The position numbers and the translations under genes were made by a program. The notes below the pieces were generated by a model, which did not search any database, was not told where the DNA came from, and was given only the letters and a program-made list of their open reading frames with translations. Shown piece by piece: positions 35,501 through 38,500 of a stretch of DNA of 64,000 nucleotides. Numbering within the stretch: the stretch's first letter is position 1; each line of letters starts with the position of its first letter. Source of the DNA: Telopea speciosissima (lineage: Eukaryota > Streptophyta > Magnoliopsida > Proteales > Proteaceae); the NCBI RefSeq assembly GCF_018873765.1, contig NC_057916.1, forward strand, positions 24,909,001 to 24,973,000. Direction: 5' to 3'.

Positions 35501-38500
35501 CAAGTTCCTACCAAACTAACACAGATTAAAACAAAACAAACAATATCAACCCAATTTAATGCCAATATCCTACTATACCCTAGGCTCAAAACACAAATAG
35601 GACCTGGTCCATCTCCGTTTGAACTCCCAAATAGGTTCGCGCTGGTACACAGAGTCGACACTGCATCATCTCCGTCATCCACACCTTCCCCAAACACACA
35701 GTATTTAGAAGAAAAAAAGTGTCCCAGTGGCTCCCGCTATTGCAGGGTCTGGGAGGGGCTAATGTATACAGCCTTAACCCCCGGGATATGATATGATTCC
35801 AAAGGATGAACTGGACATGAATAGTTCCAATAAGATTTCATTTTTGAACAAAGATCCATTTTTTTATTTATTTCATCTATTCCATGACCGGAACAAGGGG
35901 GATATACGTTATACCACGATTTTCAATCAGACGAGAGATTTCAAGAAATGGCGGATCTATTCACTCTATCAATAACCGAGCCAGATCATGTGTATCATAA
36001 GGGATTTGCCTTTTCTATTGATTCCTACGGATTGGGTTAGCCCATTTTTCTGTAGGGTATATATTCACTTATGCAGATTTCTTGATTGCCTCTACATCAG
36101 GCAAATTTGGTTAATTCATTTTTCTTTAATGTACTGTAGCCGCAACAATCTCATTGGTTTCAATGAAGAAGAGTGCCTACCTTCTTCTATTTCTACATCT
36201 AGGATCCGACTTGTATCATTGATAATAATAATAGGAACCTAACCATTATGGTAAAGTAAACAGAATATACATTCCTTCATGGCTAGATCGCTTTGCAGGG
36301 TTCGATGAAGAATGAGCCAATAATGGGACTTTTTTGAGAACTGACAGACTTAAGATGCTCCGGGATGGAAATGAGGGAATGTCTACAATACCTGGGTTTA
36401 GTCGGACTCAATTTGAGGGATTTTGTATGTTCACTGATCAGGGTTTGACAGAAGAACTTTATAATATTTCCGTGTTTCGAACCTGCAACCTGATGGTTGC
36501 AATAGTGCAACTTAACCGTTCCTAACAGTATTTGTTATTTCCAACTTCAGTTGCTGGGGAACAAGAACTTTATGCTCCAACAGTTTCTCCCAAACCATAA
36601 CCACAAACCTCAGAGAGGCTGAGGTGTTAAACCCCATGAATTAGTCGACCCTTTGGAAAAGGAAATGCTAAGACTGAAAATTGTTGAATGGACCATTAAG
36701 AATGATTCTGCACTTAATAGTAGCTAGATGCGAGTTGAGTACATGATCAAAGAACTCTCATCTCATCTCATCAGTAATTTGCATGGGCTTAAATTTTGAC
36801 CTGTTGCCTATAAAAATTGCCCATGGTTGCAAGTCTCGACTTTTGAGCGTGCAACTGTGTTTACACTTTGAGCAAAATTTCATGCATCCCACATAGAAGT
36901 GCCAAGGTTTAAAAAAACCAAGCTTCCAAAATTGAATCGGGAATCGGTTTTAGTTTGTCTATCTTAACATAATTTCTCATTCAGTTCAATAACAAGACGG
37001 TTGCAATAAGACCTTGAATAATACAGAGCTACAAGCTATGGAACCAAAATCAATTTACTCGCACAGCTAGGTCATGTGTCAATGCAGCAAATACCATTAT
37101 TCTGAAGATAAACTAGTACACTTATACATCTCCAATGAACAATAGATGGATATATGGAGAAGCATACGATTGTATAGCAAAATCCAAGTTTTTGAAATTG
37201 CAAATAGTAATATAATACTTTCATGTGAATATAGCCAACGAGGCAAAACAATATACAAAGAGTCTACCTGACCAATCCCTCCAAAAAGCTCTCTCAATTC
37301 TTCTGATGTAACGTCTGGAGGCAAATTTGAAATGTAAATTCTTGCATTGTCACAAGACTCACCACAATTCTCATCACATTGCTTCACCTTCACCTGAGGC
37401 TCGGCTTGAGCACCACCATAACCACCTGCAGTGTTTCGACTACCACCACCATCATACCCACCTTGTGGTCCTCCTCGACCACTCCCTCGTGCATCCCCTG
37501 GGCCATCTCTGCCATAACTACTAGGAGGTGGGGCACCATAGGATGGGGGATATGAATTGGGACCACCAGTGTAGCTGGTAGGAGGAGGAACTGCTTCCAT
37601 TCCATAATTACTGTTTCCACCATATGGGTTTGGAGGTGGTGGATAATTGACACCAGTCCCTCCATAAGATGGGGGTCCAGGTGGAGGGATCTGGCCGTAA
37701 CCACCATCTTCCCGTCCTTGATTACCACCTCTGCCGTCGCTACCTCTTCCACCTCCGCCACTTCCACCACTGTAATTACAGCTTCTACCACCCCGGTTCC
37801 CACCATATCCCCCACCACCACCACCTCCTCTGTTGAAACCCCCACCTCCACTGCCTTGATCGCCTGCTCCCCCGGGACTAGGGGCACCACATTTATTACA
37901 TTCAGTCCTTCTTGCAAAGTTCAGATTCCCACAGCTAACAAAAAAAAATCCATACATTATAACGTCTACAAGCTAAAGCGCCCTAAACATAGAAAGAACA
38001 ACCTTCAACGACAAGAAAAATAAGAGGAGAAAAAAAGTGAAGCAGAAAAACCTACCTTGGATTAGGGCAATTCCAATCCCCTTCTCTACCGCTGCCGCCA
38101 CGCCCCCCGCCCCTGTTACCACCACCACCTCGGCCGCCACGATCTCCTCCTTGGTATCCACCACCACCGCCACGATCTCCTCCTTGGTATCCACCACCAC
38201 CACCGCCACCTGCAAATCGAAATTAAAATAAATTACTTGATTAACTAATAAAGATAGATCGCACCCTAATCCTGAGACTACGCAACTCAAAACCCTAGAA
38301 AACGGGCAACAAGAAGAGATTTTTTTTTTTGGGGGGGGGGGGGTTAGAACAAGAAGAGATCTAAACACCTCGATTCTGAGAATTGCCACCATATCCTCCA
38401 CCACCGTAGCCCCCTCCACCGCCGCCATAACTTCCGGTACCGCCACGGCCGCCTCCGCCGTATCCTCCGGTACCGCCACTACCCCCATAGCCGCCACCGC

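Follow-up and report, generated by a model that had tools for sequence, protein, structure and literature searches.

How did a stretch of plastid-derived DNA come to lie inside a SINE, itself placed in an intron of a nuclear gene? The locus that raises this question is found in the window, a stretch of 64,000 nucleotides (G000:C1:24909001-24973000). The assembly to which it belongs, and in which we searched for further copies, comprises 1287 contigs with 822,943,500 bases. The nuclear location of the plastid-derived DNA is given by the place of the window, 24.9 Mb into an 87.8-Mb contig, and by the exons of a nuclear gene on both sides. The original prediction had described chimeric plastid DNA in a SINE in an intron of a TAF15b-like gene, and this description was borne out, the gene being one with an RRM and a zinc finger. 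The features of the locus are as follows.

34175..37267, minus strand: predicted host intron, GT..AG, 3.1 kb, splitting the RRM of the TAF15b-like gene (splice sites read on the genomic sequence)
35698..35706, no strand: target-site duplication, left copy ACAGTATTT, an exact match to 36525-36533
35707..35783, minus strand: 3' part of the SINE with its T-run end, from the consensus alignment; 35707-35718 are A-rich on the plus strand
35781..36035, plus strand: plastid ycf2 fragment (Pfam Ycf2, 7.8e-16; PDB 8xku, Protein Ycf2, 1.6e-13); CCG at 35781-35783 is common with the SINE
36032..36251, plus strand: last codons of psaB and the psaB-rps14 spacer up to the putative start of rps14 (PDB 9gbi); TTGG at 36032-36035 is common with ycf2
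36251..36464, plus strand: spacer preceding rpoB, followed by the opening 110 nt of the gene (PDB 8w9z); G at 36251 is common with the psaB piece
36465..36524, minus strand: 5' part of the SINE, 5'-truncated, with a pol III B box at 36473-36483, from the consensus alignment; assigned up to 36520
36525..36533, no strand: target-site duplication, right copy ACAGTATTT, an exact match to 35698-35706

The host gene lies on the minus strand and, from Pfam searches of the window, has a RanBP2-type zinc finger and an RRM amid glycine-rich stretches, the three marks by which we assigned it as TAF15b-like. This domain layout is in keeping with plant TAF15b, which we take to be the name of the gene. The RRM_1 match is above the Pfam cut-off (3.2e-07) and covers the first 31 of 70 positions, ending on the donor side of the intron, and the second half of the RRM was read by eye at 34174-34020; the Zn_ribbon_RanBP match, with 20.2 bits against a cut-off of 27, is below it. 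By our reading of the genomic sequence the intron is the predicted third coding intron, which runs on the minus strand from 37267 down to 34175, with the donor CAG/GTAGAC and the acceptor TTGTGTAG/GTTGG (a slash marks the boundary here and below). From the split element it is some 730 bp to the donor and some 1520 bp to the acceptor. To find a paralogue that could serve as an internal empty site, the next exon of the host gene was used as a query and gave 1 match in the assembly (2 candidates), which is the gene itself. Elsewhere in the window, positions 20353-20491 match the Rfam snoRNA snoZ247 (41.4 bits, gathering score 38).

With the joined SINE flanks as a query, 40 matches were listed (the best 40 of 1360 candidates in the assembly), and 29 of the genomic copies were used to build a SINE consensus. 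Consensus positions 1-69 correspond to 35719-35781 (84% identity, one 6-bp gap, E 6e-17) and positions 87-140 to 36467-36520 (96% identity, E 9e-21), on the same strand, and one consensus covers both flanks, as the original prediction had supposed. With gaps set aside, substitutions are found at 4/64 positions of the left part and 3/56 of the right part, which amounts to 7/120 (5.8%) for the whole element. The B-box-like GGTTCGAAAC is on the right, the 5' side, and the T-run on the left, so the element is oriented leftwards (minus strand); the head had been placed on the left and the tail on the right, the reverse of what we observe. The window copy is without 19 bases of the consensus 5' end, and the 4 bases before the right repeat (36521-36524) are outside the assignment. 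The 9-bp direct repeat that had been proposed as the mark of insertion is exact. In a crude search, direct repeats of at least 9 bp were found in 16 of the 29 fetched copies, the other 13 being 1 artefact, 3 without an anchor, and 9 with none or with 8 bp.

The pol III B box, the target-site duplication and the short, non-coding, multi-copy nature of the repeat identify a tRNA-derived plant SINE, whose family is presumably Au-like. The likeness to such elements consists of the B-box-like motif, the T-run end, the target-site duplication and the many copies in this genome, whereas the window copy differs in being 5'-truncated, in carrying an internal 6-bp deletion and in being split by plastid DNA. 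ARAGORN detected no tRNA in the window, which does not count against a degenerate SINE copy. Plant SINEs are described as mostly A-tailed in the portion of the source considered here (PMC9033089); unlike most of these, the present family, oriented by its B box, has no A tail. At least two subfamilies can be distinguished among copies L074-L107 and the consensus copies, with CATGTTTCGAACC...ACCTGATGG in the first and CCAAGTTTTGAACC...AACCAACAGG in the second.

The plastid insert inside this SINE measures 681 bp (35784-36464), close in size to the 675 bp or so that had been placed at 35790-36464. Two plastid fragments had been expected, of which ycf2 and the start of rpoB are confirmed by Pfam and PDB matches, but the count has to be raised to three. 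The two-fragment reading is ruled out, as the middle 220 bp are the 3' end of psaB and the spacer after it. The stretch 36035-36354, whose origin the original prediction had left for comparison with plastomes, consists of the psaB C-terminus and the spacer towards rps14, followed by the spacer upstream of rpoB. The PsaB C-terminus has 25 of 26 residues identical to PDB 9gbi (E 1.6e-10), with its stop codon at 36112-36114. Nuclear copy L007 runs on past the psaB spacer into a reading that starts MPRKSLIQEEKKRQK, which is taken as rps14, mostly by eye on nuclear copies; in a protein search the sole match of this reading was a weak one in the PDB, to chloroplast S14 (E 0.38). In the third piece, the ATG at 36355 opens codons 1-36 of rpoB, matching residues 1-36 of the RNA polymerase beta subunit in PDB 8w9z (7.7e-14), which we assume to be the plastid enzyme, and other nuclear copies of this piece extend into rpoB and further upstream.

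The ycf2, psaB-rps14 and rpoB places are far apart in plastid genomes. A single contiguous source would have spoken against a chimera, and the 681 bp instead fell into three separate regions when compared with nuclear copies. In the assembly searches, the parts of the insert match different nuclear plastid-derived copies, with changeovers at 36032-36035 and 36251-36254. In the alignments, other nuclear copies cross each breakpoint into a different neighbour, common to those copies, and therefore the breaks belong to the window locus. With three adjoining pieces, where at least two non-contiguous organelle fragments define the class, the insert is a complex NUPT. Among the matches listed, none of those to the plastid pieces elsewhere in the assembly exceeds 96% identity and the long ones reach at most 93%, which is also the highest identity of the ycf2 piece to other nuclear copies. 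Given these values, the assembly seems to be without a plastid contig, and the NUPTs of these plastid regions appear to be old and short. No plastid record was found in the plasmid collection. Nuclear ycf2 copy L002 (near 1501-1761) ends at most a few bases away from the window's ycf2 breakpoint and then continues as unrelated DNA, which is probably due to chance, given the many copies.

The four joints were read by hand on the alignments of nuclear copies and the SINE consensus, a check that the original prediction had proposed, and have microhomologies of 3, 4, 1 and 0 bp, all of them blunt or within 1-7 bp. At joint 1, CCG is common to SINE CCCCCG/CTTCG and ycf2 ATCCGGGG; at joint 2, TTGG is common to ycf2 GGATTGG/ATC and psaB GGTTGG/GTTAG; and at joint 3, G is common to psaB-rps14 ATGG/CAAGG and rpoB upstream TTAG/TAAAG. 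Joint 4, between rpoB TATAA/GTTTCC and SINE GGC/TGTTTCC, has 0 bp if the A at 36466 is a later change, and can also be read as a microhomology of 6-7 bp, GTTTCC(A), with one added base. The two SINE halves are consecutive in the consensus, with 14 bases missing at the break (CTTCGCGGAGAGGC, consensus 71-84 by hand assignment; local BLAST leaves consensus 70-86 unaligned), and the pre-insertion sequence was deduced from the SINE consensus alone. The loss was counted against the first subfamily because the window copy resembles it (ACCTGATGG). Taken at the level of the sequence, the joints have the pattern of a presumed double-strand break that was repaired by end joining and captured filler DNA.

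We conclude with high confidence that a complex NUPT was captured when end joining repaired a double-strand break in a SINE that had been retroposed into the intron earlier. As the anatomy of the element shows, the tRNA-derived SINE was retroposed into the intron first, leaving the 9-bp target-site duplication and a 5'-truncated copy. To judge from the junctions, a double-strand break would then have occurred within the SINE, with loss of 14 bp, and the three unlinked plastid fragments would have served as filler when the ends were rejoined, by end joining of the non-homologous or the microhomology-mediated type. The resulting complex NUPT would have no function of its own, and would undergo mutational decay in the intron and be removed by splicing.

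The divergence of the three pieces was determined against the majority of nuclear copies (6, 16 and 17 copies, respectively, with varying cover per position), a reference that is not a plastome, and amounts to 16/247, 12/219 and 13/209 positions (6.5, 5.5 and 6.2%), or 41 of 675 callable positions for the whole insert (6.1%). The three rates are alike (chi-square p=0.90), as a single event would predict. In the insert, transitions are more frequent at G:C sites (16/249) than at A:T sites (10/432; odds ratio 2.9, p=0.011), a comparison that uses its present-day composition. The SINE is no more diverged than the insert, so relative dating does not discriminate between them, and it is the nesting that gives the order of events. 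The order intron, SINE, plastid DNA had been called unambiguous: the nesting holds, but the word is slightly too strong, as retroposition of a preformed chimera, though disfavoured, keeps a small probability.

Plant mitochondria hold plastid-derived DNA, and the three pieces might have been joined in the mitochondrial genome and then moved to the nucleus as one, since the junctions alone carry no information on the compartment of joining. We regard this route as very unlikely, as the pieces overlap at each inner joint, with no unexplained sequence between them, and 675 of the 685 piece positions (the pieces overlap by 4) are callable against nuclear plastid copies. A second copy of the joined arrangement was not found among the matches listed (the best 40 of 76 candidates): none of the 41 matches spans an inner joint elsewhere by more than 9 bp. 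Of 39 other loci among the assembly matches listed, 0 combine two or all three pieces within 1.5 kb.

It is extremely improbable that the chimera arose in another SINE copy, and that SINE and plastid DNA were then retroposed here whole. Such an event agrees with a target-site duplication that encloses the whole unit, with the similar divergence of SINE and insert (5.8% vs 6.1%), and with the present insert having no TTTT on the SINE strand. However, a T-run is a stop signal for pol III, and the ancestral insert very likely had one on the SINE strand: position 35853 is G in the window (AAAGA) but A in 6/6 aligned ycf2 copies, and the A-run is kept in all six, with at least five A in 5/6 and four A in the sixth. 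In addition, the element is 5'-truncated, and no source copy is found among the matches listed (the best 40 of 1305 and 40 of 76 candidates), none of the 41 matches for the outer joints (best 40 of 1305) spanning such a joint elsewhere by more than 9 bp; a weaker spanning copy could in principle be among the remaining candidates. Finally, that two independent SINE fragments flank the NUPT by coincidence, with a chance 9-bp repeat, deserves practically no credence, for although the family is numerous (1360 first-look candidates) and includes copies that are cut off close to this consensus point (L092, L107), the two parts here are consecutive consensus segments on the same strand with 14 bp missing, and the repeat at their outer ends is exact (the chance of a 9-mer common to two random 20-mers from the window is 0.0009).

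Capture of plastid filler at a break in the SINE, the reading that we prefer, agrees with what is described for other NUPTs. In the parts of the sources considered, an integrant is as a rule a mixture of plastid segments, with blunt joints or microhomologies of 1-7 bp between them (PMC7037861), and such joints are reported in complex insertions of nine plant genomes (PMC6215612). The present locus resembles these complex (rearranged) NUPTs in having non-adjacent plastid fragments joined blunt or by a few common bases at a nuclear break. The sole difference is that here the broken sequence was a SINE flanked by a target-site duplication, which makes both the terminal junctions and the sequence before the break readable without the genome of a relative, whereas terminal junctions were excluded from that analysis, as far as the same part of it goes, because the available plant genomes were too dissimilar (PMC6215612). 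NUPTs are also stated, in the excerpts used, to co-localise with transposable elements (PMC7037861), with a nearness that is species-specific and differs in sign among species (PMC12572781). Our locus shares this co-localisation; the associations in these excerpts are statistical, whereas the present case is a single insertion described at base resolution.

The plastid-in-SINE locus is thus a further instance of a documented kind, real but ordinary. As a worked example it is clean: the pre-break sequence, the 14 lost bases and the four joints are readable without a sister genome, because the SINE in which the break fell has a consensus and carries a target-site duplication. It would be more useful if many SINE-nested NUPTs were gathered.

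One could also suppose that the GC-rich hairpin of the SINE family breaks often, making its copies scattered fragile sites that trap organelle DNA, a proposal that we consider highly improbable. In the first 29 copies, gaps were clustered at consensus 65-96, but these copies had been found by a query without consensus 71-84 and were replaced by those of a head-only search (41 matches listed, the best 40 of 953 candidates). The window, the earlier-fetched L027, L030, L032 and L045, and C9:20844372 were left out; 35 stretches were fetched and 34 counted, L108 being omitted as the second half of a two-part place. In these 34 copies, deletions of at least 3 bp at consensus 1-30, 31-64, 65-96, 97-128 and 129-158 number 1, 0, 5, 6 and 3 (two deletions are counted in two regions each) and insertions 0, 2, 3, 7 and 0, where consensus 1-64 is the head-only query and hence selected for being whole. 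The hairpin as a deletion hotspot is unsupported in this sample, which had not been selected for damage around the break: 5 vs 6 deletions and 3 vs 7 insertions are found at 65-96 and in the next region, where the mean depth is 33 and 28 copies, respectively.

The head-only sample also brought up the second SINE subfamily (CCAAGTTTTGAACC, AACCAACAGG). The SINE family is also represented at 30685-30721 of the window, by a short fragment with 87% identity over 38 bp, on the strand opposite to that of the split SINE.
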